DNA of 64,000 nucleotides, taken from assembly GCA_017506865.1 (NCBI GenBank), contig JAFCMP010000346.1, positions 1 through 64,000 on the forward strand, read 5' to 3'. The translations under genes were made by a program, and so were the position numbers. Source of the stretch: Tribonema minus. Taxonomy: Eukaryota; Sar; Xanthophyceae; Tribonematales; Tribonemataceae. Positions within the stretch are counted from its first letter, which is position 1. Every line of letters starts with the position of its first letter. Shown piece by piece: positions 12,805 to 63,790 of this stretch. The notes beneath the pieces are model-generated. The model did not search any database. It was not told the DNA's origin and saw nothing but the letters and a program-made list of their open reading frames with translations.

Positions 12805-15800
12805 TAAGCTGACGCCGGAGACGCTGCCGTTCTTCATACCGGACATTCGCCAGGCGTGGGGCTCGCTGTGCGGCAGAAATAGGGGCGTGTTTGTAACGGA
12901 TCCGCCCGATGGCCACACGTACTCGTGCAACGACCTGCCCGAGGTGCGTACTTCAATGTATGACTTCAAGTGGTGACTTCAGTGCTGACTTCAAGTGGTG
13001 ACTTCGTGCTGTGTTTGTAACGGATCCGCCCGACAGCCACACACGCACTCGTGCAACAACCTGCCCGAGATGTGTACTTGAAGTTCGGGCTTTAAATTGC
13101 TGTGCTTGGGGCCCGCCCAAACAGCCACACATACACGTGCAACTTTTTTTCAATTGCTGACTTGAAGTGTGGGCAAGTGCTGTTGATGGTGAAATGTGCG
13201 GCAAACAAGTTATTGCGCTTTCTGTCATCTCGCTTGGGCACGAAAAGTCTGGATGATGAATGTCAAGCTTTCAGAATAAACATTTGCCCATGTAGGGACA
13301 GTATCAATCCTGGTTTTGCTTTGATGAACAATTGACAATCACTTTATGTGCAACAGCCTCTTTGAGGCATGGCCATGAAGCGCCGTGCTCGCAGTTATTG
13401 AGTCAATTGTAAGTTGAATTAAATTTATTCGTACATTTGTGAGTATTTCACATTAGTTGTGTATACACATTTTTAAACACATTCTTCATCAGAAACCATG
13501 GGCAGATTAAGATATTCGTTGTCAGGGAAATTATCAATTGATTCCTTGAGGTCAAAGTACAGAAGGGGCAAAGCTGAGCATGTTGAAGAAACACATGTGC
13601 GCATGCATGAGTTCTTGTGCATACAATTCTTGGACAGATTTGTGAATGTAAGCTGCAAAAACTCAACAGTGACCCCGCATTTGTCATCTAAAGGCATGGG
13701 AAAACGGCCGCAGCGCTCAACAGCTGAGCACTGCTTGACGTCTGCATTTCAGGAGCCTTGGTCTTGCGCCAAATATTTCACTTAAAAGCATGAAGCATAG
13801 GCATTTTTGCTCCGACATGCTACCATGTATGCAACATGCTCTGGTTCGGGACTGGTGCTGTACGTCAAGACATCGCTATTGTGCTGAGAGCGCTGCTTTT
13901 TTTAAACAAGATGATTCATTTTTGTTGAATGAATGCACATACCTGTACATTTCAGAAAGGCGCATGGGAACTATTCACATCTTTCTATGTAATTTTCAAG
14001 TGAAACGTACTTGGACTACTGTGAATATCAGATGCGCTCTAGACAAACATACTTCAAAGTGCTCTCAACATGAGACACAAGCATGAGGTTTGACTATGGG
14101 AAGACATTATTTGCTGAACGACTTAATTCTCAGGGTGAGTTAGTGCAGTCAATGAGGCATTCCCGTACAAGCGCGCGTGTCTACAACTGTTGCACTCTAG
14201 CGTGATGGTGCAAGCGCGATGAGCTATGCCAAAAAAAACACGACGCGTTGTAGCAGGATGAATGAGGCTATCGCTGCTGGCATGGGGTATACAAAAAAAA
14301 AAAAGGGACTGATCGGGGTGGCGCACTTAATACCAGCCTGTTCGCATAATCACAGAACAATAGCTGAAATTCTAAAGGGCTTGTGTAGGGAAGCACCGTG
14401 TGACATATTCATGACGTACTTGACTTGGTGAAAAATGATGCCAATGTCGAGGAGAGTTCACGCTAGTGGTTGACAACTTTTTCACTGAGACGATTTGCCT
14501 CAGCTCACTGGTCACTGTTGCTGGCAACGCGCCGCCCGCTGGCTGACTCGCGAGAGCCATCGTTTGCTGTGACAGATGCCGATCTCATCACCTACCATGT
14601 ACGGGTCCAACAGTCGTCAACCTTCAAAAATCTGTACTTGCCCAACTTCATTACCATGTACAAATGTGCTCCAACAATAATCAAATTGTTTCAAATGCAG
14701 TGCTCCCTCCAACAATCAATCATCATACTATGCAAATTGCTCGTACAGCTCGATCATACATGTAGCGATCCGTTGAGTATGGTCAACATCTTAACAGCAT
14801 GCCCAGGGTGACATCTTTGAGGGTCACGCCCTTTCGCGCATGCAGATTCCTCGAAGCATATGCTGCAAACTTGTTTACCTATAAATGAATAGCTTATATA
14901 ACAACATATACAATGTCTTTGCTCCGGTGCAGAGGTGGGGTCCCGCGGCGAATGTCAATGAGGTCCTCAACCAGACGCTGGTGCCTGCCAACGTGGTGAG
15001 TCTGCTAACTTGGTCTCATAGTAGTTTAGGGTTAGGGGGAGGGTGTTTGTTTACAGCTGGTTCCTGCCAAGGTAATGACTCTGTTAGTACTGTACTTGGT
15101 CCTGTTCACGGTATGCACGTGTGGGGGCACATGTATGCGCAAGTACATGTGTACTGGTTGTGTTCTCTGAGTATGATGCGTGCACGGGTACATGTGTGAG
15201 CATAATGCGTGCGCGGGTACGTGTGCGTGCCGTATGCACATGGCAGCTGCGCGCGTGCGAGGCGGATGCGGCCGGAGTCTGCTGGTAATGGGTCTGTCCG
15301 TAAGTTAGAGTTGGGGGTACCTAGAGTTAGGGTCTTAGTGTACGCTCGCAGCAGGGGCGTGAGTACACGACACGCGTGTTCGCGGCTGTTGGCGCGCATG
15401 GGCACGCAGGTAGGGGGATGCGTTGTACACATTGCAAAATGGCATGATGTGCCTGCGCACGCATGCGCGTCGCGGCGAGCGTGCGCATCACGTCACGGGT
15501 GTGTGTATCGCATAGTGAAGTACTTGGCTTATCGGCGATAGGGTTCATGTATTCTCAAGTCTGTATGTGTCGTGTATATACTGAAGTATGGCATGCGCAG
15601 GGGGCTGGGGGGGTGCGCGTGGCCGATGCGGTGAGAGCGCGCGCGCGCGCGTCTGCGTTGTGGTGCACACGCCCCTTTGCGGGGCCCTGCGTGTCATGCA
15701 TCGCACAGCACTCGCCTCAAAGCGACGAGAGCGTTGTTGATTCCCCTGGCGCAAAGGTTCTCGAGTGCTGCTCATTCATGCTCGCTGCACGTGTGCATCA

Positions 15801-18800
15801 CCGGCTGGCGCGAAAAGCGCTGCTGACATCCTTGCGAGTGCCATCGCGGTCAAAGCGCAATTGTGTGTGGGTAGCATTGCTCACCCAAAATCGCTCTCCC
15901 CGCGCGCGCTCCCCTGCAGGCCGTGGAGACCATTGAGAACATTGTCAAGTCCGTCTACTTCACCAACCCCACCAAGGTGAGAGGCAGCGCTCAGCTAAAC
16001 ACGCGCTCCGCGTGTGAGAGGCAGTGCTCAGCTCGGCGCAAGAGAGGCAGAGCTCAGCTCAGCATGAGAGAGGCAGCGCTTGGCTCGCTGAGAGGGCGCA
16101 TTGCTTCGCACGCCGCTTCCCGTTCTGTTACGCAGGCCGCGCTAGTGCATGCGGCGCCCCGCATGCGAATCGCTTTGCGCAGAACTCTGTGACGCGCAGC
16201 AGCGCTCCGCTGCAGCTGCACCACATCCTGTGCTATTCAGGCTCGTAAATCGTGTTGTCTGCCCGTTGGCGTCAGTTGGAGTACATCCGCCACTGTGCCT
16301 TCTCTGATGCGGCACGCCGGGCGAAGGTGCATTGAGCTGAAACGTCTGGCGCCGCAGCGCTCAGCGGTTTCATCTGGCGCAGCAGGCGCATGCATGGCTT
16401 TTGCTTGTGCAACCTATACCATACTGTACCTCTGCAGTGTCTGCAGTTACAAACCACATGTGCATGTATGTAATGCTCAGCGCCGGACCTCACAAAAGCG
16501 CGAGACGCTCCCCCCCACACGGCGCCACCTCATACGACTGCTGCTTGCTGCTTGCTGCTCTGTGTGTGTTTGCCGCTGCACTGTAGACCACGATACCCAC
16601 TTTGAGTTTGAAGTTTATGTGATGACGCCCCCCGTCCCCCCAGGACGCCGCCTCGTGCGACTTTGAGGGCATCAGCACGCTGCTTTGTGATGTGTACATG
16701 CGCCGTAGACACGCTAGTCACTTCAACTGTGAAGTTCAACAACAAGCCTGTGTGACGCCCCCCCCCCACAGGACGCCGCCTCGTGCGACTTTGAGGGCAT
16801 CAGCACGCTGCTGTGCCTTGTGTGCATGCTGCTGCGCCGTAGACCACGATACTCACTTGAAGTGCAAAGTTTCAAGCCTGTGACACTCCCCTCCCCCCCC
16901 AGGACGCCGCCTCGTGCGACTTTGAGGGCATCAGCACGCTGCTGTGCGGGCGCGAAGACCCGTGGAAGCGCGCGCCCTGGTATGACACCCTCAAGGCGCC
17001 CATCCGCGCAGTTAACATCGGCGGACTGTGAGTGAACGCAAACTTCAATTCTGAATCATTATATGTCGCCGGTGAAAGGGTTAGCGAATCGTTTAATGGA
17101 GCCGTGGTATGACACTCTCAAGGCGCCCATACGCGCCGTCAACATTGGCGGACTGTGAGTGAAAGCAAACGTGAACTACTGATTCATGCTAACTTCAATG
17201 CTGATGCATCGCTGGGTCCGCCTAGGTATCAATAGGGTTAGGGCTAGTGAGCTGCGTGTAGTGAGCTGTGTGTGGAGACGTTGTGGTGAAACATCCTTAC
17301 GGCGCCCATTCGCGCCGTCGGCGGACGGTGAGTGAACATAAACTTGAGCACTGACAATTGCGATCTTCAATTACTGGCGTATCGCTGATGAGCCTAGGCA
17401 AGGGTAGTGGTGCCGGGGTATGCAGTGCTCAAAGCGCCCGTCCGCACCGTAAACTTGGCGGACTGTGAGTGAACGTTAACTTGAACTGATCACTACGGTT
17501 TCTGTAGGGTTGATAATGGTTAGGGTTAGGGTTAAAGTTAGGGTTAGGGTTACTGTGAGTGGGCCGGCCATCATGTTGCGGCAGGGCCAACGATCCGTGA
17601 AAGGTCGTTGCCGAACTCGTGCCAACTCACAAGCCGCTATTGCTTTCAACTTCAACATTCTCACGTCGACTTCAACCAAAACATACCGCTTCTGTATCCC
17701 AGGTTTGTTCTGGAGAGGTGGATCCTGCCGGCATTCGTTGACTGGGGCGAGCCCACAGGCATCATCGACCAGCACAGCTTCAGCGTTAAGTGCGGCGACC
17801 TCGGCATCTGCGAGGACATCAAGGCGCACTGGAAGAACTTCTACACGGCGCAGGTGAGATTATTCACTCAATGACTCACTCGATGACTCGCTCAATGACT
17901 CATTCGATGTTGCCTCGGCATCTGCGTGGACTTCAAGTCGCAGTGGAAGAACTTCTACACGGCGCAGGTTAGATGACTCAACTCAGTGACTAACTTAATG
18001 ACTCGCTCAATGATGCCATGGCATCTGCGAGGACATGGAAGGTGCACTGGAAATGACTCACTCGATGACGCCATCGACAGTGGGTCGTGGAGAGGTGAGG
18101 GGCGGCAGGGGTAAGCGTGCGGGTTAGGGATCAGGGTCAGGGTCAGGGTCAGGGCAAGGGCTACGGTTAGGGTTAGAGCGGCTGGCGCCTCAGCTCAGCG
18201 GTACGAGCACTGGGAGATGCGGCCAGCGTTGACCTTGATGACGCGCTCGGCAGCAGCGCTCACCCGCTGCTGATGCGTTTCCTCTGCATCGTCACGGTGC
18301 GAGGTTTGTCGAAAGTGTGGGACACTGCATGCTGTGTGCCCTGCCCTGACTGACAATGCGGTCCGAATGCACATACGTACGCTTGCTCTTCTCGCGGGCA
18401 GAGGCAGGGCTGCCGCCGCGCGCCGCCACACAAGAATCGCGCGGCGTGCGCGGCTTGCACGTGCGCTTGCGCAGACACACATCCATTATGCGGCGACCAC
18501 GGTTATTGGCGGAAGCCATTCAATTCGACGATTAACGTAGCCACACCTTGTCACCTCGTGCACTACAATCTTTTGATTCGTTTCCATGCACGGTCTGGCC
18601 GCTGTTCCGCCGCCGCTCTGCGCACTGTTTCGCCAGACGGCGCATGTGTCACCGCCCATTCGCTTGCCCCTCCGTGCTCTCTCCGCGCTGCGTCGCACTG
18701 CGCTAGAGGCACTGCTGGCACAGTCACCATGTTCTCTGGTGTGGAGCGCTGACGTCGCTGTGCCCCGCACTCTGCCCCCGCCCCCTTCAGGACTTCCACG

Positions 18801-21800
18801 ACATGAAGTCCATGGGCCTCAACTCGATCCGCCTGCCCGTCGGCTGGTGGTACTTTGCCAAGTACGCCAACATCAACTCCGCGCCATACATCATTCCAGA
18901 CGAGGACCTGTACAGCCTCGATCACCCTATCACGCGCGTGCTCAAGTGGGCGCACGACGCTGGGCTTCAGGTGACCGTGATGACTGTGATTGTTCTCTCT
19001 GGATCTGTAGGGTTAGGTTAGGCGTTCAGGTAAGGATTGAGTTGACCCTTAGGAGACGATGATGACTGTACTTTGCCAAGTACGCCAACATCAACTCCGC
19101 GCCGTACATCATCCCGGACGAGGACCTGTACAGCCTCGACCACCCCATCACGCGCGTGCTCAAGTCGGCGCACGACGCTCGCCTTCACGTGATATAGTAA
19201 ATGAGGACGCAAAGCATTCAATCTGACGGCTACCCACACCTTGTCACCTAGAGCTCTACAATCTTCTGGCTCGTTTCCATTCAGCATTGGTACTAGGGTT
19301 AACGCCGTCATCATCCCATATTCAGCCTCGACCACCCCATTACGCGCGGGCTCAAGTGGGCCCACCCCATTACGCGCGTGCTCAAGTGGGCGCACGATGC
19401 TGGCCTCCAGGTGACGATAACGGCTGTGATTGTTCATTCTGGATCTGTAGAGTTAGGTTAGGCGTTCAGGTAAGGATTGAGTTGACCCTTAGGAGACGAT
19501 GACGACTGTACTTTGCCAAGTACGCCAACATCAACTCCGCGCCGTACATCATCCCGGACGAGGCTCTGTACAGCCTCGACCACCCCATCACGCGCGTGCT
19601 CAAGTGGGCGCACGACGCCGGCCTTCAGGTGATCAAGTCAATGAGGACGCAAAGCATTCAATTTGACGGCTACCCACACCTTGTCACCTAGAGCTCTACA
19701 ATCTTTTGGCTCGTTTCCATTCGGCATTGGTACTAGGGTTAACGCCGTCATCATCCCATATTCAGCCTCGTCCACCCATTACGCGCGTGCTCAAGTGGGC
19801 CCACCCCATTACGCGCGTGCTCAAGTGGGCGCACGATGCTGGCCTCCAGGTGACGATAACGGCTGTGCGTCAGTCTTTTCTTTGTTCTGCACATCTAGGG
19901 TGAGGGTCAGGGTTGGGGTCAGGTCTAGGTTAGGGTTGAAGTTGGCACTGTGCATCGTCTCGGACTAAGACCCCTGTGCAGCATCAAACACCCCATCACG
20001 TGCGTGCTCAAGTGGGCGCGCGACGCTGGGCTTCAGGCGACGATGATGACTGTGATCGTTGCTTCAGGATCTGTAGGGGTAGGGGTAGGGGTAGGGGTTT
20101 TACGTAAGAATCGAGACAACGTCCAGTGATGATGATGACTGGTGCATCAATCTTCCTGCATCTTTAGGGCTAGGTAATGGTTCCAGTAAGGATTGGGTCA
20201 AGCGCTAGCGCCATGCACCATTCTGCATGAGACCCCTGTACAGCCTTGACGCGGGTTGCAGAAGCGTGGGCACGATGCCGGCCTCCAGGTGGCAATGATA
20301 CTTACTGCCATCTGTTCTGCATCTGTAGGGCCAGCATTAAGGCGAGTCGATCGTCCTGAATTGAGGGCTTGTACGGCCGCGCAGTGCTGCTGATCCGTGG
20401 TCGCTCGTGCCCCGAAGTGCATGTGATGCTGGTGCGGGGGCGCTGCGCGGAGCACTGTTGCGAGCTGAACCCCCCCGACCGCGCATGCCCCCAGTGTATC
20501 TTGTGATACACGACAGTGCTGGAAAGCAGTGTTGTTGCATGGAAGGGATGCCTGCCTACTGCGGCGCCAGCCATTGCGCTGAGGAATCATCGACGAGTCA
20601 AACTCTGAGTCATCGTGCTGCTTGCCGCATGTGTCATGTACGCCACAGGTGATCCTGGACCTGCACGGCGCCCCCGGCGGCCAGAATGGCCTTGACAACA
20701 GCGGCCTCACGTCACCGGACCCGAATAACCTCGTGTGGGGAGAGGTGAGTGGGGGGGGGGTAGCTAGGGGCAGGGCTCACAACTAGGGTTAAGATTGCCT
20801 TGTTTGTTCATGTCGCCGGACCCCAAACAACCTCGTGTGGGGAGAGGTGAGGGGGTAGTGAACTACAGTATCTACGGGGGTTTAAGGCTAGGGCCAGGGG
20901 TCACAATCAGGGTTAAGGTTGCCTTGCCCATTGCCCTAAACACGTGCACGCTTAGTTGGGAAGCGAGGGGTTAGCAAACAGACTACGTGGGGATAGTGCT
21001 AGGGCCAGGGTCCACCACTAGGGGTAAGGTTGCCTTGCCCTTTGCCTCAAACATGTGCACATTAGTTGGCAGTAGGATTGGGAGCAGCCAGGACCAGCGG
21101 TGGGATTGTCTGGCTGGCTCGCTCACCATCCGATGTGCACTTGAAAGTTGACTCAACAGCATCTTGTGTACTCGAATGTTCATAGAGAGATGGCAGGTGC
21201 TATATACATGTAGAAGCGTCGACACTATGTGGGCCGTTTTGACGTGTTCCGGTACATGTGATGTGTACTTGACGGTCAATCAAGTGCATACTCAAATGGC
21301 ATCTTGTTTACTGAAAGTTTTACACGAGACTGGCAGGTGCATTTAGTTTATAGAAGAGTGGCAGGTGTATGTACATGTAGAACCGCAAGTCACTACTGTA
21401 AGCTGTTCTGATGTGCCCCGACTGCGCTTCCTTCCGCGCGCACAGGCGTGGCTGTACTCGCCCAACCACATGGGCAACACGGTCAAGACGCTCGCCGCCA
21501 TCTCGCAGTACATCAACCACATCGACGACAACCACAACCTGGACAACATCATGGTGCGTTCGTGCAGTTTGTGGTGCTGGTGCGCTCTCTGAGCATCATT
21601 GACGTATGCGACAGCGTCGTGTGGTATGCATTCATGCCATCTCGCAGTACATCAACCACATGATGTTGTCTAGGTGGCATCATGGTGCGTTAGTGCTGTC
21701 AGGTTCTTCGAAGTACTGAATGGTGCAGGTGCGCTCTCTGGCATCATCTGTGCGTGTGACAGAGCGGTCAGTGGTGTCCTTGCGGCACATTCTCGTGTGC

Positions 21801-24800
21801 GCCTGAGCACACACATGTATCGATGCTGCGGCACTGCCAGTGCAGTCCCTTCGGGTTAGGGTGAGGGTTAGGGTTAAAATTAGGGTTAGGATTAGGATTA
21901 GGGTTAGGGTTAGGGTCAACCTAAGCCTAACCCTAACTCTCAACCCCAACGTGCGGGCTTCACTTCACCATATTACTAACCGTAGTTCATTGGCAGATGT
22001 CATCTTCAAGTATCCTTGCCTGCACGCGCGGCGATGCTGGAGCCCGTCATTGACCTGCGGACGTTCCCATGTAGTCGCAGCCCCCCGCTCACTGAACTTC
22101 GCCCAGTGACTTGCCACTTGTCCCCATACTCAACTTGCCACAACTCGTGCCGCCGCCGCTGCAGGCACTGGAGCTGCTGAACGAGCCCTGGGCATTCCTG
22201 GACATTGCGCGCGTGCGCGACTTCTACGTTAGCGCCATTGAGGCCGTGCGCCTTGTGCGCCCGCACCTCCCCGTCTTCATCCACGACTCGTTCCGCGGCA
22301 ATGCGTGGCCGACACTGCTCAAGGACTTGTGAGTGCCGCAAGTCATGAGTCAAGAGTTTCAAATCTTAATTTTTTGTACATACACGTGCTGCGCTGTGTG
22401 ACTTGCATATCATCAATACTAGTTGAAGCGGCGTTGCTCGTGCGCCCGCACCTGCTCGTCCTTAACGCACGACTTGGTCCGCAGCAACGCGTGGCCAACA
22501 TTGCTCAAGGACTCGTGAGTGCACAGATCGTGAGTCATGAGTCTTGACTCTCAGTTCTGTGCGCACACACACACACGCTGTTGATCATCGGCTATGCAAT
22601 TGCTCTGTGCGCACCCTGAAGCATGTGTGCAAACGCATCGCTGCAATCAGTGCGTCTGTGCGTGACAACTTGACAGCTTCCGATCGCCCGTGTGCGTTCC
22701 TTTGCGCGCAACGGCCAGCTGTTTCGCACATGTAGGGTCAGGGTTAGGGGTAGGGCCCATGTCTACCACACTCCCTTTCAAGTCTGCATGCGTGCATCCT
22801 TGCCACCCTGCTTGCGTGCGCTCTGCTCTGACCAGCCACATGCCTGTCTGTTTGTCCTGTGAAATTGCAGCCCCTACCCGGATGTCTTCATGGACAGCCA
22901 TCTCTACGTAAGTGCCCCACGCCATGTACTGCATGTTGGATTGTCAAATTGCTCTTTGACTTCCTTCCAGCTTTGCTTTGTATAAATAATGTACTCGAGG
23001 CAATGTAGAGAGCTGTTGCTCACTGCCCTGTTGCTCCACACCGGCAGAGGCAGACATGAAGGTGGCTGATGCAACAGAAGACAGACGCCAGTTGCGTGCT
23101 GCCAGAAGTGGATGCATTGTAGTCGGTGTAACTGCCACAACCGTCAAGCGCCCAAACGGCAGTGAGCATGTAACTGCCATCAGCTCTTTCCCATGGAGCT
23201 GCATATGAACGTTGTGACGGGCATGTAAACACTGCGACAGGCAATGAGCATGTAACTGCCATATGCTTCAGCAGTTCTCAGCGCCGTTCATGAGCTGTTG
23301 CCAGCACTTCCGCAGAGCTCTGCGCGCACACGCGCGCGAGGTACGGCATGCTCTTGCCGCACAGTCACTGCTGCTGCGTCAGCGCTCAGCAACTGTCGTG
23401 GACAGCCCCGTCTCTACGCAAGTCTCCCGTGCCCCCGTGAAACGTATGTGCTCGGCGCTGTCCAAGAGCTGTTGCCAGTGTGCAACGGGGATCTCTAGAC
23501 ACGGCGCGCTTCTGTGCTCGACAAGACATCATTTGTGCTGCATCACCGCTCAGCAAACTGCTGCTGGCCCTGCGCCTCCTCAATCCCGCCCTCTGCAAAA
23601 ACAAATTATTTCCTCTCCCTGTCAACAGGAGCCATGAAGTGCTGTTACCCCTGAGGCTCGTCGATTGACCTGACGCAATTCTGGTGTCCTCGCTGCCGTC
23701 TCCTTCCCCTTCTCCCTCTGCAGCACGGCTTCAACCCGAGCGACGCCGCCAGTGACACTCCCAGCATGGACAGGCAGAAGATGTGAGTGTTGCTGAGCAC
23801 TGCTGCAAAGTTGCACCGCTGCTGGGGGCGGTCATTTCGGACTATTAACAGTGTGTTTTGATAGTGTCAACTTTGGATCATCGCGCAGGCCCACTGTAAT
23901 TCAACGCTAGCTGGCTAGCACTTTCTTCTTTTGCACCACATTGATGTCCATAACCTTGATGTGAGGAATTAGTGCAGCACCAGCAGAATCCTGACTCCGC
24001 CATTGTTGTGTGGCTCACGCGTAGGGCGCTAAGGCAGATGATGTGAGTATTGTCTGCCGATACGTCAAGTTGGTGAGGCTGACTTTGTCAGTTGGAATGG
24101 CTGCCCAAAATCAAGTTTGTTCAGATTGACATCGCCAGCTGACTACCAACATTAAGTAAGCCGCGAGTTGCATTGCCAGCTGGCTACCATTGTTAACTCT
24201 GTTGAAAGTGACATTGCCAGCTGGGATGGCTGCTATGCAACAATGCGGAAGCAGCGCTCAGCACGAGTTGCTCGCAGATAGCGGAGCAGCTTGCTGTGGC
24301 ACCGCGGCTGATGCTGATAAATCCGCAGGGGGATTGCGCGTGCTTGCATTACCTGCCTCACAACCATGTTGTACTTCAGAAGTAGCATTGTGACTTTGTG
24401 TGCCTTGTCAGTGAGTGGCTGAGACAAAGCGCACACATTATCCCTCGGTTTTTGCTGCTGCTCACGCCCCCTTCGCCCCGCGCATGTACTTGTACTGGCA
24501 CTCCATCCAAGTCGCAGAAATGTGTACTTCAGAAGTGAAACCATCACTTCATTTGCCTTGTCAGTGAGCAGTTGAGGCAATGCGCGCGCATTCTCCCTCA
24601 TTGCCGCGGTCGCTTACCCCCCCCCCCCCCCCGTGTGCGTCGTGCCGCCGCCGCAGGTACACGCACGAGCGGATGAGCTGCGGCTACGGCTCCATGCTGC
24701 GGTACCAGACGTGCTCGACGGTCCCCGTGGCAGTGCTCGAGTGGAGGTGAGACTTTGAGTGCTAACGTAGTGCTCGGCTCCTCAAGCAGCAGGCGCTATA

Positions 24801-27800
24801 TGCTCGTTGTTGTTGAAGTTGAAGGTGTAAACTGAAGCTGAAGTTGTGTGCTGCCCTACCAGATGTGCTCCACTGTCCCCGCGCCAAGCGCTTGAGTGGA
24901 GGTGCAACGCTTCTCTGCCGTGGTGCATGATGTATCATGCACAGTTATGGATGATATCGCAAGCGAAAATTCATGCATGCATGCATGCTGTGTTCCACTG
25001 CTCACAGATGAGGCGTTGGTACTGTTTTCCTCTCAACGCACTTCAGCACATCGTAGTGCGTGCGCTGTGCAGCAGTACCTCTGTCCCTATGGCTGCATGC
25101 TTGAGGGTTATTGAGATAGTTGCACTGTACGGTCGCATCGCGTCGGTACGCACCATAGCCATACGCACTTTCAGTGTCATTTCAGGAAAAATGACTTGAA
25201 GTACTTCGCGAAGTATGTGTTTCGCCTACTACAGGTGGTGCCTACCGGACAGGCTTCACTGCTTGCCTTCTCGATGTGCATGATGTCTTGGAGATTACAC
25301 CCCGACGATGCGGATCATGCACAAAGAGCGGTCCATTGACATGTTTGTTCAAGTCTTGAATTAACCCCTTACACCTGACACAGTGCCCGCTGTGTTCACG
25401 CTCGTTGCCCTGTACGCTTGCATCACCGATGCGCGCCACACGTGCTTTCAGTGCAGTTTCAAGAACAAATTAAGTGTCTCATCGGCAAAAGTGCTGCCGT
25501 ACCAGACGCTCCCCACTGGTTACCCCATTGGTCTGGATTCTGTAACTGGAGGTTACAACAGCTGATGCGGATCGTGATCTCAAAACGGTCCATTGATGTA
25601 TTTGTTCAAGTCTTGAGTTAACCCATTGCGGCAGATTACCTGACACAGCGCCCTCTGTCTTCACGTTCGTTACTGCATCTCTCGTCCCTGTCCCCTGCTA
25701 CCAGTCTGGCCATCGACAACTGCATGCCCTACTTAGGTGAGTACCCAGTGCTCAGCGCAAAACCCATCGCCATTCCGTGTACACAGTAGGCCTGCAGTCT
25801 GCAGCGGGGGCTGTCGACCCTGCAGTTGAGTCGGTCGGCCACGGTTTTCAGGATATCCAGACTTGAGATTGAGATGAGATTATGGGGCTTACACAGGTTC
25901 AATACGCCCAGTGCTCGGCTCACGATGCATGGTGAACATGGTCAATTCTTCGCACAACATCTGCTGTGCACCCTCAGCACTCAAAGCTCATCGAGCGCGG
26001 TAGGGTTAGGGTTAGTGATGAAAATCAGCGGCAGGGTCAGGGGATGGCAGTCTGTGTATGGTGGCTTGCGCATGGCGGTACAGTCTGTTGTCTCGGTGTC
26101 ACGCATACAATGGTGTTACGCGCTGGCAGCTGTTGAAGTCGCAGGCACTGTGGTGAATGCCTCGGTGCTCAACAGGCACCGCAGAGTCTCAATGGCCCAG
26201 CAGCCCCCCCCCCCCTAACAAACACAATTAATGCCTCTAACTGAGTGAACGTGCTAAGTCCAACAGGCGCCCTTACAATGTGTCCACGCTTTTATCAAGC
26301 ACAACACCCCTTACAAGCAAGTGGCCACATTGTGATTGTGCATGCTGCATGTGCTATGTGTACGTTGCTTGCGTCTGCAAACGAGAGCGGCAAAGCCAGC
26401 CCCTCCTCCCCCCCCCTCTCCCCTTGTCCCGCCCCAAAGTCAATAGCAGCAAACTGTCACATGCATGCGCATGTATGTCTGCACGCACCCGCCCTCATGC
26501 TGCTATAAGCGCTGCAACTCAACCCCCCCCCCACCTTCCACCCCCCTCCGCAGACCCCAAGACTACGGCCAGCGCAGTCGCATTTATACAATTTCGCTGT
26601 TACCTACAGTGTCACCCATCACCACACATCCACGCGCGCAACTCAACGCTCAGCTGAAGATGAGCGCTGCAACTCAGCCCCCCCCCCCCCCCCTGCTCCC
26701 CTACCACCCCCCTCTGCAGACCCCAAGAAGCAGGACTACGGCCAGTGCAACCATGTCGCGGAGCGCCTCACAGACTCGTGGTGGACCTCGCACATCCGCT
26801 CCTTCGCATCGCGCCAAATTGCCGTCTTTGAGAAAGAGATGGGCTGGTCCTTCTGGTGCTGGAAGCTCGACGAGCAGGCCATGAAGAGCGACCCTAGCGC
26901 GGCGTTCTGGTCGTTCAAGCTCGCGGTGCACAAGGGGTACATTGACACGCGGTACCCGTCGGACGCGTGCATGCACCCGCCCGCGGAGGACTGGGCCGTC
27001 CCCCAGGTATGTTCACTGATGCGACATGGTCCTGTGTACATGAGTATACATCATGTGCACAGCATATAGGGAGATATGTAGTACTCAAAGCAGTGTTTGG
27101 TCGTTCAAGCTCGCGGTGCACAAGGGGTACGTTAACACGCGGTACCCGTCGGACGCGTGCATGCACCCGCCCGCGGAGGACTGGGCCGTCCCCCAGGTAT
27201 GTACACGTAATGCGGCGCGGTTCGGCGTACATGAGCCAGTATTGTATGCACATACACGAGCAAGTGTTGTATGCACACATGCAGATAGTTCGTGTATGTA
27301 TGTGTATGTGCACGAACATTCATCAAACTTCGAAGTGCGATGTGGCGCTGTACACAGAAGTGCGTACATACATGAAGAATGTGGTGTAGATGTATGTATG
27401 CCCCTTATACGCACACACGCTCACCCAGGAAGACTGGATCATTCTCCGGGTACAGCGGTGCGACGGGGTCCTCTGCACGCGAGTCTATGTATGCACTTGA
27501 AAGGAAGTGTATAGTTAAAGACTGTATATACATCTGTGTATGCGGTGCTTAGGACATGTATACCCCTCAGACGCATGCATGCACCCCCCCCCTGTGTGAA
27601 GGATTGGGCCGTCCCCCAGGTATTTGCGACAGCGTGATGGTGTTGAAACGTCGATGTACTACGTGCGTGCTCTGTAGATACATTACTTGCATGCGGTGCA
27701 ATAGGGCTGCCCCAGACGTTGTCTTGACGGTGGCACAGTCAGCAAGCGCGCCTGCTGAGGGTTAACAGCCCGTCAACTTCAACCGGTGACATGCCATTCG

Positions 27801-31195: not shown

Positions 31196-31444
31196 TCATC
31201 GCTGCGCCGCTGCCGTCAGCGCGTAGTACCGCCGGTACTGGTCCGCGCCCATGGCGCCGATGTGCTCCGCCGTGAGCCACTCCAGCGGCACGTGCGCGCC
31301 GTCCACTTCAAAGGTGACGCCCGAGCGTGGCGGCGGCAACTTCACGTCGCCCGCGCCGCTGCCCGTCGCCGCCGTATCGCCGTCTGCCGCCGCCTCCCAA
31401 TCGATATCCTCCTCCGTGTCCGTGGTGCCCTCGGCGATCGCTGC

Positions 31445-31476
<32 letters not shown>

Positions 31477-37526: not shown

Positions 37527-37817
37527 TCAGCAACGGCGGCCACTGTGGCAAGAGGAGCGCCACGTTTTGCCGACCACAGCAGGCGATGGCGCACGCTATC
37601 CTTGTCAGCACTCGCGAGTTCAACCTCGTAAACTTCAAACCCTGCCAAACCCTACCTAGGTTATTTGACGAGGTCTAGGGACCAGTGGAGCCAAGCGTTG
37701 GTCGAGCCTACAGTAGTTCCTGGCATTCGCCTATGTACCCCTGCTGCTGTTGGAGTCAACCAGCAAGCACTGACTGACAGGCCTCTCAGGTGCGGCGGAA
37801 CAGGAGCAATCACAAAT
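37527..37817. promoter_or_regulatory. Divergent promoter region, TFIIE alpha / organellar RNA polymerase
   Basis: Only 291 bases separate the two start codons, which face away from each other. Both promoters and 5' leaders must fit here unless there are upstream non-coding exons. No convincing TATA box was seen. Co-regulation of a nuclear and an organellar transcription component is possible but is inference. Confidence 0.6.
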
Positions 37818-49800: not shown

Positions 49801-51311
49801 GACGGCATGCGCATGCTGGTCGGCATCGTGGACCGCAAGGTGAAGTTGCGAAGTTTCTAGTTCAAGTTCTGAACATGGCTTCTCTTGTCGGCGAGGAAGT
49901 TTGAAGCTCGGCATTGGTGGACCGTGAGGTGAAGTTTGGCTGGCGGCAAGACGAAGTTATGCGCATCATGTTTCGGTTCGACACTGAGCGCGTGTGACTT
50001 GGACTTGAGCTGTCTACCGCAAGACGAATGATTGCAGGCAGCAAATGATTGCTGGCAGCAGGGCGAGGGCCTGCCAGTGTCATATTGTATTGCTGCGGTC
50101 GGGGCTAGCAGGTGCTCTCGCGCTCGTGCCGTTGGCGCAATGCACGTGGCGCCGCTGCACAGCCCCCCGTGGCGCTGCTATCCGCACGCGACAGAGCGTT
50201 GACTTAGTACATAAAACAGGGGGTGTATGTGCCCATGTGGCTGGAGCCGATGCACCCAATGCCGTCTTCCTGCGTCGCGCCCCAACTTACCTGCATGCGG
50301 CGCGCAAAACGCCGTGCAGTGCGCCGTCTGTTCGCGCTTGCATGGGTGTCTGTAGCCGTGGCTTCAAATGCCGCAACAGCTATCTGCAAATTCATAGCGC
50401 CACGACCTTTGTCCCCGAACGCGCACGCACATGCACCGGCGAGAGTGCACTGCGCGGGAAGCACTTCCAACGCGGCAGCCGCCCCCTCAACCCCGTGACG
50501 CTCCATCCATCGCCCCCCCCCCCCCCCCCCTCCTGCCTCTGAGCACTGCCCCCCCCCCCCCCCCCCCTTCTTTCCCCTCTCCCAGGTCGTGAAGCAGACG
50601 GTCATGACGAGCGTGTACGGCGTGACGTTCATCGGCGCGCGCAGCCAGATCCAGGCGCGCCTCGAGGAGCGCCTCGCGCTCGACACGTGCGCGGACGCCG
50701 CCGCCGTCGAGGCGCGCGCCGCCGCAATCCGCGGCTGCGCCAACTACCTGGCGTCGCTCACCATGGGCGCGCTGTCGGGGCTGTTCTCGGAGGCGCGCGC
50801 GATCATGGACTGGCTCGCGACGCTCGCGCGCATTGTCGCGCAGCAGGGGCAGCCCATGGCGTGGGTGACGCCGCTGGGGCTCCCCGTCGTGCAGCCGTAC
50901 CGCCGCGGCGGCGACTTCACCATCAAGACGCTGCTGCAGTCGGTGACGCTCAGCGGCGCGGGCGACGACGCCGCGCTGCCCGTGGAGGCGGCGCGGCAGC
51001 GCTCGGCGTTCCCGCCGAACTTCGTCCACTCGCTCGACTCGACGCACATGCTCATGACGGCGGCGGCGATGGACGCGCGCGGCATCCCCTTCGCCGCCGT
51101 CCACGACTCGTACTGGTGCCACGCGGGGCACGTCGACGTCATGAACGCCGCGCTGCGCGACACCTTCGTTGAGCTGTACTCGCGCCCGATCCTCGAGGAC
51201 CTGCACGCGTCGCTCACGGCGCGCTTCCCGGACGTGAAGTTCCCGCGCGTGCCGCCGCGCGGCGCGCTCGACGTCGGCGCCGTGCGCGACAGCGCGTACT
51301 TCTTCAACTAG
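37818..51311 (+). CDS. Organellar single-subunit (T7-like) DNA-directed RNA polymerase, probably mitochondrial
   Basis: Thirteen exons: 37818..38927, 39927..40044, 40592..40638, 41109..41201, 41777..41898, 42825..42882, 43960..44067, 44500..44634, 45795..46100, 47134..47321, 48393..48501, 49525..49695, 50586..51311. They give 1096 residues. The N-terminus is Arg/Ser/Ala-rich without acids and ends near RRRFYHQL, a typical mitochondrial presequence. The catalytic part has [63 protein letters not shown] (first catalytic Asp), [12 protein letters not shown] (motif B Lys and Tyr) and AVHDSYW (second catalytic Asp), and it ends in FFN as this family usually does. It would transcribe the mitochondrial genome. 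The least certain joint is exons 2-3 (47-bp exon, donor GTAATT). Intron 11 begins with GC rather than GT. Many introns carry junction copies, and exon 5 has a rival copy. Confidence 0.93.
40168..40215 (+). repeat. Copy of polymerase exon 2, 3' end
   Basis: GGGGGCGGTGCTGGT followed by GACACGGCCAGGGTGGTT-like sequence matches the real exon end and donor at about 40003-40046, with a deletion. Confidence 0.75.
40251..40410 (+). repeat. Tandem duplication of about 80 bp
   Basis: TCTCGCTTGCG(T/C)TTATGCGC through GCGTCGACGG and GCTGCTGCG occurs twice back to back with only a few differences. It derives from intron 2 sequence resembling about 40088-40140 and is non-coding. Confidence 0.9.
40798..41108 (+). 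repeat. Copies of polymerase exon 4, 5' end with acceptors
   Basis: CTGCAGGTGACACCGGAGGC is the real boundary (41108/41109). Versions recur at about 40801 (GCAGGTGCCGCTGGAGGCGA), 40862, 40959 (GCAGGCGACGCCGGAGGCGA) and 41035. Spacers share CTACCTTGCCCCC and TACATAC motifs. Confidence 0.9.
41202..41525 (+). repeat. Copies of polymerase exon 4, 3' end with donors
   Basis: AACAAGAAGCTGGTGAGAGA at the real junction recurs at about 41299-41320. Decayed forms are at about 41408 (GAGCTGGTGAGAGGCAAG) and 41508 (GAGCAGCTGGTCAG). Each is followed by a TTGAAGTT-rich spacer. Confidence 0.88.
41975..42500 (+). repeat. Four copies of polymerase exon 5, 3' end with donors
   Basis: Copies at about 41978-42033, 42133-42193, 42268-42328 and 42450-42500 each repeat the [18 protein letters not shown] block and GTGCGTCCGG or a similar donor. 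The first copy encodes [14 protein letters not shown], with the Pro-Pro usual for the family, whereas the exon used in the model has Lys-Pro. Later copies have frameshifts or substitutions. Confidence 0.9.
43161..43188 (+). repeat. Interstitial telomere-like array
   Basis: Four TTAGGG units in polymerase intron 6. An opposite-strand array (CCCTAA units) lies about 560 bases upstream at 42601-42618, in intron 5. Confidence 0.88.
44965..45794 (+). repeat. Five upstream copies of polymerase exon 9, 5' end with acceptors
   Basis: CCCCCCACCCC(C)GCGGAGCACGCC and then AGGTGGCGCGAGAACGAGAT, preceded by a C-tract and a GCAG acceptor, recur at about 44977, 45148, 45294, 45464 and 45626 before the real exon at 45795. 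Each copy encodes a version of [16 protein letters not shown] and then switches to the same intron tail (CTGCTCA, TTCTCTTCTGCAAACACACA). The period is about 160-170 bases. Confidence 0.95.
46180..46355 (+). repeat. Two copies of polymerase exon 9, 3' end with donors
   Basis: TACTGGCTCAAGGTC(C/A)AGGT and GCGA or GCGG recur at about 46207-46232 and 46327-46352, after the real end at 46100. Each is followed by a TTGAACTTGAGAAAC-like spacer. Confidence 0.9.
46735..47133 (+). repeat. Two copies of polymerase exon 10, 5' end with acceptors
   Basis: About 46737-46812 ([20 protein letters not shown]) and about 46928-47000 ([20 protein letters not shown]) precede the real exon at 47134. Each sits behind CTGGTCTCC(A/G)(T/C)AGG-type acceptors and a CCCTAA-type stretch. 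Confidence 0.93.
47430..48105 (+). repeat. Serial copies of polymerase exon 10, 3' end with donors
   Basis: TGCAAGGAGCTGATCGCTGC and CACCGACAGGTGCG-type ends recur at about 47437, 47565-47650 (long copy with [17 protein letters not shown]), 47738, 47789, 47876 and 47957, with a trace at 48085. Spacers contain CTAACCCTAGA and GGGCACGTCATGCATTTGCA, and the units near 47820-47990 are almost identical. Confidence 0.93.
49105..49435 (+). repeat. Copies of polymerase exon 12, 5' end with acceptors
   Basis: GCAGGTTAAGCTCCTGCTCG (about 49105), GCAGGTCAACCTCCTGCTC (about 49319) and GTAAGCCTCCTGCCCGGCGA (about 49377, running on through the next 35 bases) precede the real exon at 49525. Confidence 0.85.
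49800..49940 (+). repeat. Copies of polymerase exon 12, 3' end with donors
   Basis: ATGCTGGTCGGCATCGTGGA, CCGCAAG and GTGAAGTTG recur at about 49812-49848, and a decayed copy (GTGGACCGTGAGGTGAAGTT) at about 49917. The real junction is 49695/49696. Confidence 0.9.
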
Positions 51312-52816
51312 CTAGTTCAATGGAGAAAAACAAAGGTGCACGGGGTGACACACCGCATGCGCGCGTGCGGCGGCAGCGCCCCGCTTCCCCTCTATGAATG
51401 GAATCTGTGCTCTGCGAGTGTGCTAGCTGGTGTGTTTTTCATGTTTTCTGCCCATGCTGCCCCCCGGCGCCGTGCCCGACAGCCCATACTTCTTCAACTA
51501 GCTAGCGAATTTGAACAAGGGGGTGCGAGAGGGGGTGGCGCACTGCATGCGCACGCGGCGGCAGCGCCCCGCTGCCCGCCTGTGTGAATGAAGTCTATGC
51601 GCTCTGTGACTGTGTTGGTTTTTCCTGCCCATGTTGTCCCCCCCCCCCCCCCCGCCACGCATTTTAGCCTGGCGCCTGATGGGAGCTCTGTTGTTGGTGG
51701 CGTTCTCCATGAATGTTCATTACTTGCAGTTGAAATTTGCAGCCCTCGTGTGTTTGAGCGGTGGCCTCTGGTGCCCCCCATCCCCTTGAGGGCAGGCGGA
51801 AGGCCCAGCTGATGTTGTGCTGCCGCTGCTCACACGGCACACACGGAGCGATACATGCCCCGAAGGTGACAAGCTTCGTCGCTCGCATGGCATGTCTTGC
51901 ACGAGCGGTCACCATTGTGATGGACTTGACAGTATGATGAGATTTGTTCTGGCTCTGGCGCTTGATGCTCGTGTTTTGCACCATGTGCTTGTCAAGTGCT
52001 GTGCGCGCACTGTTGACAGCGATATACATGTGACAGGTACCTTCCCATTCCTACTGTTGTGTGGCTACATCAAAACGGACAAGGTACTGGTGGACCTGCA
52101 AACGCCTCCAGAATGATCATTGTTCCGAACACATGCTGGACGCCAGCGGCAGCGATTGCACACAAATGGCGTATGAGCAATGAACACGCGCGCGAGCTCG
52201 CAAACCAATCGCGACTCACACCAACAAGAGGTGAAGCGCGAGTCACGGTGCAGGTTAACCAGACGCACATGGTCTCAGTCTTGAAACAAAGGTGCGCCGG
52301 TGCTCGCTTTGCAACGACAAGCGATCTCTGCAGCAAGGACGTCAAGGCATGCCTGCAGCAAACGAGACCAATATCCCAGGATAGGCAGGCTGCCATCAAA
52401 TTTGTCTCATTGTGCGCAAAGATTCACAAAGCACATGGTGACGTGCGGCTGAAGGGGACACACGCGCCGTCTGTCTATGGTACTACCTAAAGCGCTCTCG
52501 CTCGCGCACGGGCGCGGGGGGGCGCGCCGTAATATCGCGCGCGCGTGCAACGCTCTGCATAACGACTCCAAGGGATCGCTGTCGCCGCGCACTGAATGGG
52601 GTGTGTGTAGTAGGGTACAGCTGCTGCGGCACACACATCCGACGGGCCTAAAGTGCCCTGCGGCATATCGAATCTCCGCTCTGCGGTGGCGCGCGGCGCC
52701 GCCGTCTCCATAACGCTGCTGCCGCGGGCAGCGCTGGCTCCCTCTCTCTGTCAGGTATCAAAATCCCTAATGTGTCCTCACTGTACGCACACGACACTCG
52801 TCTCTAGACCAATCTG
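51312..52816. other. Region between convergent polymerase and RBR ligase genes
   Basis: It contains the duplicated polymerase 3' end and a C-tract (about 51641-51653). The rest shows only short, unrecognised open frames. Confidence 0.5.
51465..51612 (+). repeat. Duplicate of the polymerase gene 3' end
   Basis: CCCGACAGC.CATACTTCTTCAACTAGCTAG, including the stop codon, returns here about 180 bases after the real one (51290-51430). Downstream sequence with CGGCGGCAGCGCCCCGCT and GAATG..TCTGTG is repeated too. The copy lacks the rest of the gene. Confidence 0.9.
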
Positions 52817-58800: not shown

Positions 58801-59445
58801 TTTGAACCACTGGTACTTTGCCAGCGTCACCGGCTCCGTCGAGAGCAGCTCATAGATGTCCGCCTCCGCAATGCTCTGTCCGCAGGCGCTCTCGCCACTG
58901 GCAGCTCCAGCAGCGGCGCCGCCGCCACCGTCACCGCCCCCTGCGCCCGCGCCGCCTCGGCCGCCTTGCGCTGGGCCATCGCTAGAGGTGACGAGAAAGC
59001 AGATTGGGTAGGTTTGGCCATCGACGACCTTCTTGCTGATGTACTCCCTCACGCAGGCGTGGCAGAAGGTGTGGCCGCAGGCGGACAGGGTGAAGGCAGC
59101 GTCGCCGCGCCGCGCGTACTCGAAGCAGATCTGGCAGTAGTACAGGTCGCTGCCGCCTGGGGTGAGGGCGCCGCCATTGGAGAAGCTGGTGATGGTGCCG
59201 TTTGACAGGGTACAGATCGCGGTGCTGAGGCCATTGGAAATCTGCCTGCTCAAGCCTGCCCCAACGCTCACTCCCCCTCCCGTTGCCGCTGTGGCAGTGG
59301 ACTGCTGAGCGGGAGTCTGTGGCGTCGCGGTCCTTTGCCTGCTGAACTGAATATCTGGATCGTTGACAGCGACAGCGCTCGCCATCCTGCTGGCAGGGGA
59401 GCCCGCCTTGCTGCAGGGCCTGTTGTGTCGCAAAACAGGCTCCAA
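52817..59445 (-). CDS. RBR (RING-IBR-RING) E3 ubiquitin ligase, RNF19/dorfin-like, membrane-bound
   Basis: Minus-strand exons 59445..58784, 57929..57832, 56448..56289, 55608..55528, 54961..54769, 53446..52817 join in phase to give 607 residues. RING1 is in exon 1 (CQICFEYARR..CGHTFCHACVREYI). The IBR spans exons 1-3 (CSKC, CPRCGHRYC, GPATTC). RING2 is CPGCARAIEKAGGCNQMK plus CYNCGTHFCWLCLRK, and the Cys of GGCNQM matches the catalytic cysteine of Parkin/HHARI-type ligases. Two membrane segments follow (VLSLIQVVIIGPPALLLTLV and VVMALLLLPFVIAIGVPILL), as in RNF19 proteins, then a low-complexity Gly/Ser/Ala tail. It would pass ubiquitin from E2 through the RING2 cysteine at an internal membrane. 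A second in-frame Met (59385) is an alternative start. After RING1 a Gly-rich insert (about 35 residues) interrupts the usual spacing. The exon with the catalytic Cys is copied serially in the next intron. Confidence 0.9.
53638..53858. mobile_element. hAT-type MITE, complete, with 8-bp target duplication
   Basis: Terminal inverted repeats begin TAGGGTTGCCAAAAC and match for about 19 bases with one mismatch. The element is 221 bp, A/T-rich and non-coding (repeated TACGGT motifs inside). It is flanked on both sides by ACTTCAGC (53630-53637 and 53859-53866). An 8-bp duplication and this TIR type are characteristic of the hAT superfamily. It sits in intron 5 of the RBR ligase, and no transposase is present in the window. 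Confidence 0.9.
54935..55295 (-). repeat. Copies of RBR ligase exon 5, 5' end
   Basis: Plus-strand CTGGTTCGGGCAGCCGGTGA, CGTTCCAC at the real exon (54935-54961) recurs at about 55083-55115 and, more decayed, at about 55252-55290. Both lie upstream in the direction of transcription. Confidence 0.85.
55925..56288 (-). repeat. Four copies of RBR ligase exon 3, 3' end (catalytic-Cys segment) with donors
   Basis: ACTCACTTCATCTGGTTGCA and CCCGCCGGCC (minus strand: GGCNQMK end + GTGAGT) marks the real exon end at 56289. It recurs at about 56180, 56102, 56009 and 55927, with a trace at about 55803. Units include CGCACACGCGCGCATTGCT-like spacer. The copies keep the codon for the catalytic cysteine. 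Confidence 0.93.
56540..57620 (-). repeat. Copies of RBR ligase exon 3, 5' end with acceptors
   Basis: GGGCCGTGCGCGTCGCCGTG, CTCTGAGCATCA recurs at about 56556-56600 and 57577-57612, and a longer exon fragment without the acceptor is at about 57400-57440 (GCGGCGCACGTCGTCGCCGG). The real boundary is 56448/56449. Confidence 0.88.
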
Positions 59446-62049: not shown

Positions 62050-63351
62050 ATGATCCAGTCTCTCTTCATCATGAGCAACGCAGGGGAGGTGGTAAGTGCA
62101 CTGCCCTATACCGTGAATGAGATGGATTCGTTTTTTGGTGCTATGCCGCCCTCCTGTGTAGCAGACGCCAACTTTCAGCACCTGTGCTACCTCTTCTACA
62201 CATGCCGATTCAAAGAACCGATACGATATGAAACGTAGCTTTGCTGCTGGTGCCGCAACTTCCATAGAATGCATGGCCTGCAATGTTGCCATCGTCAGTC
62301 TGTGACACAGCTTGTTGAAGCAGGGAAGCAACCTTTTTGCCCATTGCTTACCATCAGGCAAGACGCAGCACAGCACGGCCCAGGCCGTGCACACCCTGCT
62401 CGCTTGAACGAAAAAAACCTTGCTCTGGTGCTCGCCACCTAGCTCACTCACCCAATTCTGCCGCCCTGCGCCATTCTCATGTCCCAGCTTATCGAGAAGC
62501 ACTGGCGGGAGGTGACGCCCCGCAGCGTGTGCGACTACTTCTGGGATGAAGTGTGCAAGCTGGAGGACAGAGAGGAGATACCCCCCATCATGGCTGTCAA
62601 CAAGGGCTTCATCATCAGCGTCTACCGCTACGACATGTTCCTGATAGCCAAGGTGCAGCAGGAGACGCCGCCGCTGCTGGTGAGTCACTCACTTACTCGC
62701 CTACTCACTTGCCTACTTGCCCGCTTGCAACGTGTGCGACTGAGTGCTTGCAGGCAACAGGCCGACCTAGGCCGCGCCGTGCTTGACCCTTGCGACATGC
62801 AAGTCCCGCAGTTTGTCATCATCAGGCACTGTTGTGCACAGTTCATGACACGGTTATGAAGCCTCTCATCAGGCTTCACTCATGCATCCTTCACCCCCCC
62901 CCCCCGGACCTCCTCTCCCGGTGCATGGAGTTCTCGTACCGTATGCTGGACATACTCGCGGACTACCTCGGCGCGGTGTCGATGAGACCTCCATCAAGGA
63001 GCTCTGGTGTACACGACTCAGTTCTGATACTCTTTCAGTTGTCAACTTGTCAGACTCTACCCCCCTCCTCACCCGCCCATTCCCCCCCTCACACTCCCCC
63101 CCAGTGCATTGAATTCCTGCACCGCGTGCTGGACATCCTCGCGGACTACCTCGGCGCGGTCGACGAGACCTCCATCAAGGAGTCGTTCTCGCTGGTGTAC
63201 CAGCTCCTGGAGGAGATGATGGACAACGGCCACCCCATGACGACAGAGCCCAACGCGCTCAAGGCGATGATCAAGCCGCCCACGGTCATGGGGCGCGTCG
63301 TCGCGGCGGCGACGGGGCGCAGCGACGCCATCAGCGAGGCGCTGCCAGACG
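62050..63351 (+). CDS. AP-3 complex subunit mu (3' partial)
   Basis: Three exons are seen: 62050..62091, 62488..62679, 63105..63351 (ends in phase 1 at GTGAGC). The protein starts MIQSLFIMSNAGEV, then LIEKHWREVTPRSVCDYFWD, PPIMAVNKGFIISVYRYDMF and FLIAKVQQETPPLL. It continues CIEFLHRVLDILADYLGAVD, LLEEMMDNGHPMTTEPNALK and MIKPPTVMGRVV. This is the N-terminal longin-type domain of adaptor medium chains. The IEKHWR, PPLL..EFLHRV and TE.N.LK..IKPPT pattern fits AP-3 mu better than AP-1 or AP-2. The product would be part of the AP-3 coat sorting cargo from endosomes or Golgi to lysosome- or vacuole-like compartments. The cargo-binding C-terminal domain lies beyond the right edge. Copies of exon 3 occur on both sides of it. 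Confidence 0.92.
62911..62998 (+). repeat. Copy of AP-3 mu exon 3, 5' end with acceptor
   Basis: A C-tract is followed by TGCATGGAGTTCTCGTACCG and about 65 more bases matching exon 3 (MLDILADYLGAV), with a one-base loss in GTCGACGAGACC that breaks the frame. It lies 190 bases before the real exon. Confidence 0.93.
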
Positions 63352-63424
63352 GTGAGCGCGTCACAGACTCCCAGTTGAACTTGAGACTCCCAGTTAAAGT
63401 TGGCCCAATGCTGCATCGCGCGCA

Positions 63425-63790
63425 GTCACGCACAGCGCTCAGGCGGCGACGGGGCGCAGCGACGCCATCAGCGAGGCGCTGCCGGACGGTGAGAGCGTCA
63501 CACTTTGCGGTTGAAGTTTATGCTCTGAAGTCATTATGCAGCATGGCTTCATGACAAGCTTCGTGACACGGTGGGGCAGCTGCTGCGCAGGCAACAACGG
63601 GGCGCAGCGACGCCATCAGCGAGGCGCTGTCGGACGGTGAGAGCGTCACAGACTCCCAGTTGAACTTAAGACTCCCAGTTGAAGTTGGCCCGATACTGCA
63701 TTGTGCACAGTCACGCACAACGCTCAGGCGGCGACGGGTCGCAGCGACGCCATCAGCGAGGCGCTGCCGGACGGTGAGAGCGTCACACTT
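63425..63790 (+). repeat. Three copies of AP-3 mu exon 3, 3' end with donors
   Basis: GGGCGCAGCGACGCCATCAG, CGAGGCGCTG and GACGGTGAGAGCGTCAC recur at about 63440-63505, 63598-63650 and 63735-63785, after the real end at 63351. Spacers share CTCCCAGTTGAACTT and GTCACGCACA. The period is about 145 bases. Confidence 0.95.

Follow-up and report, generated by a model that had tools for sequence, protein, structure and literature searches.

Introns of the xanthophyte Tribonema minus carry partial copies of the ends of the exons that they adjoin, and recurrent short, local tandem duplications across exon edges, shielded by the conserved exon, have probably built these copies. The main material is a 64-kb stretch of nuclear DNA (the window, a term that here means the whole of the stretch analysed), which forms part of a 998,920-bp contig in a genome of 158.2 Mb, and 20 further loci of the same genome were sampled. 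Two genes in the window provide most of the detail, one encoding a GH5 glucanase and the other an organellar-type RNA polymerase.

Exon boundaries in these two genes were set by spliced alignment to two proteins, P0001 (a relative of the GH5 glucanase) and P0121 (RNA polymerase). P0001 is transcript-derived, is 97% identical to the glucanase of the window and bears the label Partr_v1, presumably that of an aphelid parasite grown on Tribonema; despite this label it groups among xanthophyte-like and brown algal proteins, and it is probably a contaminant from the host alga, perhaps from another species. The resulting glucanase model comprises 18 exons (11291-28957), and P0001 crosses all 17 of its junctions with no added coding segment. 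P0121 is the annotated RNA polymerase protein of Tribonema minus and gave a model of 12 exons (37989-51308), with nine of the 12 main segments 97-100% identical to the window and the other three deviating only at exon edges that are overrun. Together the models hold 30 exons and 28 introns, and all their junctions are GT-AG save for a single GC donor. The query for the 3' end of RNA polymerase exon 11 ended at 49701, 6 nt beyond the true donor (after 49695); the offset affects this one query end and applies to the copy test and to all analyses built on the same exon table.

Exon-end copies in the window and at other loci

In the copy test the outermost 60 nt at either end of every exon were aligned with the flanking introns, and a Smith-Waterman score of at least 22 was taken to indicate a copy. 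The adjoining introns of the two modelled genes contain 42 such copies: 32 are copies of 3' ends and lie downstream of the exon, at 15 of 28 junctions, and 10 are copies of 5' ends and lie upstream, at 4 of 28. No wrong-sided copy was found in these genes, either of 3' ends upstream (0/28) or of 5' ends downstream (0/28). The controls were equally clear, in that no test reached the threshold among 325 of exon ends against unrelated introns (highest score 16), 112 against shuffled introns (highest 16) and 112 against reverse-complemented introns (highest 18). By the same end test an adaptor-subunit-like exon has one copy upstream and three downstream, a TFIIE-alpha exon has eight, all downstream, and none of the four wrong-side tests on these two exons was positive; two further window exons gave weak matches only (2 and 1, with scores of 22-27). 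Comparison of the window with itself by BLAST (E<=1e-4) returned 75 direct vs 9 inverted repeat matches, the direct ones mostly less than 1.2 kb apart.

A preliminary description of this DNA had placed at least 50 copies, always upstream for 5' ends and always downstream for 3' ends, and had proposed a genome-wide scan of the terminal 60 nt of exons on both sides against shuffled controls. On the modelled genes such a scan has now been run, with the negative results given above for shuffled introns and wrong sides (0/56), and 54 copies (42 plus 12) were counted in the window. Of the six genes in seven that had been called affected, four are firmly confirmed, and two other exons gave the weak matches; the firm count leaves out a RING exon, the end peptide of which was not located, and genes without exon models.

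The 20 loci, of 9.9 kb each, were found by family searches and consist of all ten listed TCP-1 exon clusters and ten kinesin clusters; they are thus a sample of conserved multi-exon genes and not a random one. Searches with PF00069, PF00005 and PF00270 also located exons, which stand outside the copy test. After six of the 80 listed matches had been dropped as presumed copies, 74 exon cores were tested, and copies of 3' ends were found downstream at 21 of them (45 copies) and copies of 5' ends upstream at 14 (32 copies), with no wrong-sided copy in 148 tests (0/74 and 0/74). Against unrelated introns or flanks, the exon-end 60-mers of these loci reached a score of 22 in 2 of 688 tests, and a further chance control gave 0 of 296. 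Ten of the 20 loci are affected (TCP-1 7/10, kinesin 3/10), and they are distributed over ten contigs of 0.38-1.97 Mb, so that the earlier view of the pattern as a genome-wide habit is upheld within this sample.

Anatomy of the copies and proposed mechanism

The anatomy of the copies was analysed in 56 of 63 junction pairs (28 from the window and 35 from the loci), the remainder having rested on copies or fitted the boundary poorly; the set holds 76 copies at 33 junctions. Local repeats at the 20 loci are direct in 147 cases and inverted in one, and the spacing between nearest neighbours has a median of 151 bp (135 pairs). The alignment runs exactly to the terminal base of the exon for 58 of the 76 copies (donor side 38/54, acceptor side 20/22), and among the 67 scorable copies the splice dinucleotide is retained in 53 (GT 36/46, AG 17/21), slightly above the 69% for GT and 73% for AG expected under simple neutrality. 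Copies in one intron are 0-35% divergent from the exon. At codon positions 1, 2 and 3 the differences between exon and copy are 0.127, 0.118 and 0.189 on the donor side and 0.116, 0.090 and 0.194 on the acceptor side, positions 1 and 2 differing at about 0.5-0.7 of the rate of position 3; since this is what free mutation at positions 1 and 2 with extra synonymous change in the exon would give, the copies are read as unconstrained. In the two modelled genes none of the 15 exons with copies is shorter than 70 nt vs 7 of the 15 without (P=0.006). The exon part of the duplicated units covers 35-138 nt among the series displayed, and the absence of short exons is expected if a unit needs to include a good stretch of exon.

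In the mechanism proposed here, a unit of typically 80-220 bp that straddles an exon edge would be duplicated in tandem. Selection would preserve the exon, and each event would leave an intact exon together with a surplus copy turned into intron. An event at a 3' edge would yield the order exon, intron start, exon tail, intron start, in which the first donor would be used and the second tail would be intronic, and an event at a 5' edge would leave an AG and an exon head upstream of the exon. The copies, which are probably functionless and presumably younger the nearer they lie to the exon, would then decay unconstrained, while fresh duplications beside the exon would shift older copies inward, and introns would grow partly from their ends. 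The events themselves might come from the repair of staggered nicks or breaks with fill-in, or from replication slippage, and the residual likeness of old copies to the unchanging exon may re-seed later events. The two-sided orientation needs no special mechanism, because tandem duplication across a junction and an intact exon yield it; the preliminary description, which had singled out orientation by side as a special feature, is not sustained on this point, the geometry of junction-spanning duplication being sufficient. Its simplest reading, repeated local tandem duplication at junctions, is supported and agrees with the direct orientation of the repeats, their spacing and their sidedness.

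Gene conversion from exon to copies was suggested by the fact that the exon parts are preserved far better than the spacers. The claim was dropped because a neutral simulation, uniform along genes and with unit ends allowed to vary, reproduces a similar mismatch.

Preference for exon edges and competing explanations

A repeat-family classifier was applied to 76 introns, with homology cores less than 2.5 kb apart taken as neighbouring exons, and it placed 30 families on the donor side and 20 on the acceptor side, leaving 13 as intron-only. The ratio of junction to intron-only families is therefore 50:13, and when uniform duplication with neutral decay was simulated the same classifier gave 16:38, 28:57 and 39:72. 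Once exon-derived sequence is masked, 32 repeat families remain, of which 29 adjoin a junction or an exon copy vs 18.3 ± 1.95 when permuted; in the stringent intron-only form of this test, 22 of 32 families lie at most 60 nt from a true junction vs 8.3 ± 2.2 expected, a figure reached in none of 1000 permutations. Spacer-only families divide 29:3 in the real data vs 76:65 (P=9e-5) and 96:40 (P=0.02) in uniform simulations and 40:54 in one of lower rate, and a simulated edge bias gives 56:37 when fourfold and 87:13 when eightfold. A preference for exon edges is likely, its size being uncertain.

Several results weigh against this reading, and the preference itself varies with the test applied, appearing as none, as weak, as 33:16 or as strong. 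The ratio of 33:16 comes from a variant classifier applied to introns after removal of the exons, in which 33 families touch exon ends and 16 do not, and which scores as intron-only some families judged to be junction families (GH5 intron 15, RNA polymerase intron 2). A looser test in the window found no excess (donor-proximal 6/38, acceptor-proximal 9/43, interior 30/195), and was biased against an excess in omitting junctions whose nearest copy fell inside the tested segment; a second looser test was marginal (12/45 and 15/45 vs 38/202 in the interior, odds ratio 1.85, P=0.047), and may have been diluted by simple-sequence matches in intron interiors. The simulations rest on guessed rates for deletion, insertion-deletion events and unit length, and P0001 comes from a relative whose own genome may be without the copies. 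Near copies are closer to the exon than far copies in 62 vs 21 comparisons on the donor side and 23 vs 2 on the acceptor side, the order that repeated duplication at the edge should produce, but the counts overstate the significance of the age order because pairs within a series are non-independent. Only 28 of 147 spacers of 40 nt exceed the 95% point of unrelated spacers, and in most pairs the spacers score under the simple neutral expectation; similarly low scores come from the uniform neutral simulation with variable unit ends. The preliminary description had the spacers duplicated along with the copies, which is plain in some series, e.g. at locus L006, where one exon tail is repeated in a row together with about 45 nt of intron, but is not evident overall. 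Finally, the affected junctions carry many copies each (76 at 33 and 101 at 40 in the real data vs 142 at 116 in the uniform simulation), and re-seeding or real hot spots are therefore needed.

A rival view is that duplication is uniform along genes, edges seeming favoured through geometric sidedness and through the longer recognisability of copies of a conserved exon. It draws on the two looser intron-only tests, on the ability of the uniform neutral simulation to reproduce largely the mismatch in decay between exon parts and spacers, and on the existence of intron-only families, of which there are 13 in 76 introns, or 16 by the variant classifier. The family ratios and the permutations stand on the other side, with 50:13 and 29:3 exceeding the ratios in the uniform simulations, that of lower rate included, and we regard uniform duplication as unlikely. 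The stronger claim, that in this lineage tandem duplication has a true mutational hot spot at exon edges, re-seeded by the unchanging exon, that introns grow at both ends and that much of their interior consists of fossil exon ends decayed beyond recognition, is put forward tentatively and is more readily doubted than affirmed. The growth of introns had earlier been termed junction-driven, and on this the results are mixed: some tests show an excess at edges (50:13; 29/32; 22/32), the looser ones show little or none, and one event lies at a stop codon.

That event, in the RNA polymerase gene, is a tandem duplication of about 190 bp across the stop codon (51275..51654, forward strand), a coding edge that has no splice site; its size and layout are those of the events at junctions. 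Of nine coding ends tested, the other eight are without a duplication, two of these eight having possible donors before the stop. Splicing is not required for duplication, because one duplication spans a stop codon, though it may contribute. A mechanism specific to junctions, i.e. DNA damage at exon-intron boundaries coupled to splicing or transcription, would accommodate the clustering of spacer-only families at most 60 nt from true junctions and the greater frequency of affected donor sides (36/102) than acceptor sides (18/102) in the window and the 20 loci (P=0.007). It would also suit the difference between coding ends (1/9) and exon 3' ends (36/102), numbers that are too small to separate the two. 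Yet it does not predict the stop-codon duplication, nor the restriction of copies in the window to exons of at least 70 nt, for short exons have splice sites too, and a donor excess is what selection too would leave, as a copied acceptor upstream would compete with the true site and a copied donor downstream need not. Such a mechanism appears rather improbable.

RNA polymerase exon 11 (49525..49695, forward strand) bears on whether the copies have a function. Its donor, AAG|GTGAAG after 49695, is matched in all nine bases by the 3'-end copy at 49787-49845, and P0121 continues past the first donor into this intronic copy, adding about 46 residues (whole segment 49525-49845). Among 64 alignable homologues, 44 lack most of the added segment and 20 align with more than 15 residues of it; the reading into the copy is probably an annotation error. 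Downstream donor copies are close decoys, and this public protein model of Tribonema minus appears to carry one. It could be argued that the copies serve as alternative exon ends, decoy splice sites or redundancy, given that GT or AG is retained in most of them, that P0121 enters one of them and that 20 homologues align there; but the pattern over codon positions is without protein constraint, splice dinucleotides barely exceed the simple neutral expectation and the majority of homologues do without the segment, all of which makes a function very improbable. An artefact of assembly, of which the copies themselves give no sign, can scarcely be entertained, in view of the 0-35% divergence of copies in one intron from their exon and the recurrence of the pattern at ten loci on ten contigs.

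Positions in the window and relation to known systems

All positions that follow are on the forward strand unless stated otherwise. In the glucanase gene, exon 3 (12805..12943) is followed by a 3'-end copy at 13011-13069. Exon 6 (16903..17027) is preceded by two 5'-end copies (16644-16687 and 16772-16816; identity 0.98 and 1.00), with a C-rich tract and AG before each, and followed by 3'-end copies at 17101-17154 and 17412-17464; those of exon 7 (17703..17853) lie at 17913-17967 and 18020-18052. Downstream of exon 8 (18791..18970, by spliced alignment), seven 3'-end copies occupy 19068..20036, with starts at 19129, 19323, 19363, 19569, 19763, 19802 and 19979, and include a second-order tandem duplication of 440 bp. 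A repeat of about 50-80 bp lies at three places around the same exon (18510-18590, 19208-19283 and 19648-19720), with one inverted match about 9 kb away at 28074-28137. Further 3'-end copies follow exon 9 (20649..20744; copy 20808-20846), exon 10 (21446..21553; part of the 3' end, 21636-21661), exon 11 (22165..22328; copy 22457-22513), exon 14 (24657..24746; copy 24849-24901) and exon 16 (26720..27006; copies 27137-27196, identical at 60/60 positions, and 27561-27619). Intron 12 holds an intron-only repeat pair (23274-23392 and 23448-23556), distant from both junctions.

The RNA polymerase gene is similar, with 3'-end copies after exon 2 (39927..40040; copy 40166-40209), exon 3 (41109..41201; copy 41274-41312) and exon 4 (41777..41898; copies 41977-42032, 42135-42187 and 42270-42325). 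Its intron 2 also contains an 81-bp tandem duplication (40247..40408; 96% identical, the aligned length being equal to the period), which overlaps older junction-derived repeat sequence; it is the single clean unit whose breakpoints were inspected for microhomology, too little to decide the matter. Exon 8 (45795..46100) is flanked on both sides, by five serial 5'-end copies in 44976..45685 (starts 44976, 45147, 45297, 45465 and 45627; AG in each) and by 3'-end copies at 46193-46224 and 46291-46345. The end test likewise places two 5'-end copies (46739-46798 and 46929-46988) before exon 9 (47134..47321) and six 3'-end copies after it, within 47421-47988, as well as a 5'-end copy of exon 11 at 49377..49427. 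On the reverse strand, the eight 3'-end copies of the TFIIE-alpha exon (core 34943-35419) lie in 33810..34801. The core of the adaptor-subunit-like exon (63111..63359), a Pfam match slightly under the cut-off, has its 5'-end copy at 62928..62989 by the end test and its 3'-end copies at 63442-63496, 63586-63644 and 63727-63781.

Other repeats were seen in passing. Short arrays of TTAGGG-like hexamers occur at 1060-1092, 17518-17552, 21853-21916 and 43161-43186, three of the four being in introns of the modelled genes, and intronic tandem repeats with units of 26-29 bp at 15168-15225, 16016-16087 and 44133-44191, two of the three starting 40-66 nt past a donor; the repeat tests left out periods below 30 bp and hence these latter arrays. 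Elsewhere in the genome, kinase-like matches have equal or near-equal scores on several contigs (C144, C223 and C278; C90 and C179). BLAST puts the divergence between the paired stretches C90/C179 and C144/C223 at 5.6-7.5%; one pair is nearly gap-free, and in the other one of the two stretches has an additional short tandem unit. These pairs are uninformative on the gain or loss of exon copies.

Transposons and simple repeats are usually held responsible for the lengthening of introns. In the present sample, repeat families that reach the adjacent exon as well account for about 29% of intron sequence (18,225/62,298 bases, 76 introns), and the gradient of similarity with distance among the copies documents intron growth. 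Introner elements and intronic transposons bring about sequence-driven gain or growth of introns and form dispersed families. The sequence copied in Tribonema, on the other hand, is the gene's own local exon edge, with matches at unrelated loci in 0/325 and 2/688 tests. Tandem duplication of whole exons produces local copies of coding sequence, whereas in Tribonema each copy consists of an exon end and a single splice site, and no use of the copies as exons is evident in P0001.

Closer parallels come from tandem duplications that cross a boundary. The nearest published event found is in potato, where a tandem duplication across an intron-exon boundary created an intron (PMC4974935); its unit crossed the boundary, as is proposed for Tribonema, and took the branch site, the polypyrimidine tract and the 3' splice site with it. 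The potato event was single and gave a new intron, whereas those in Tribonema are serial, affect many junctions and enlarge existing introns with the exon unchanged. Neither of the two modelled genes showed a new intron, the glucanase exon chain matching that of P0001 (intron positions of relatives were not compared). The AGGT model of intron gain by Rogers and Hellsten, as related in PMC4974935, likewise has short tandem duplications turn exon into intron sequence, but in Tribonema the splice sites come from a junction already present, without any need for an AGGT duplication within an exon. Fill-in by CST-Pol alpha with end joining at staggered breaks (PMC8355091) is a plausible source of short direct duplications; its insertions are below 100 bp, a preference for exon edges is unmentioned in the part of that report used here, and the spacing in Tribonema is about 151 bp. 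Among relatives, Ectocarpus has long introns (median 524 bp on autosomes) and tandem repeats that are reported to be fairly even across the genome (PMC12477816); since they are fairly even, the habit of copying junctions may not extend to it. Other xanthophytes and brown algae, with their long introns, can be scanned for the same pattern. A literature search found no title or abstract opening that describes serial junction copies, which does not establish their absence from print.

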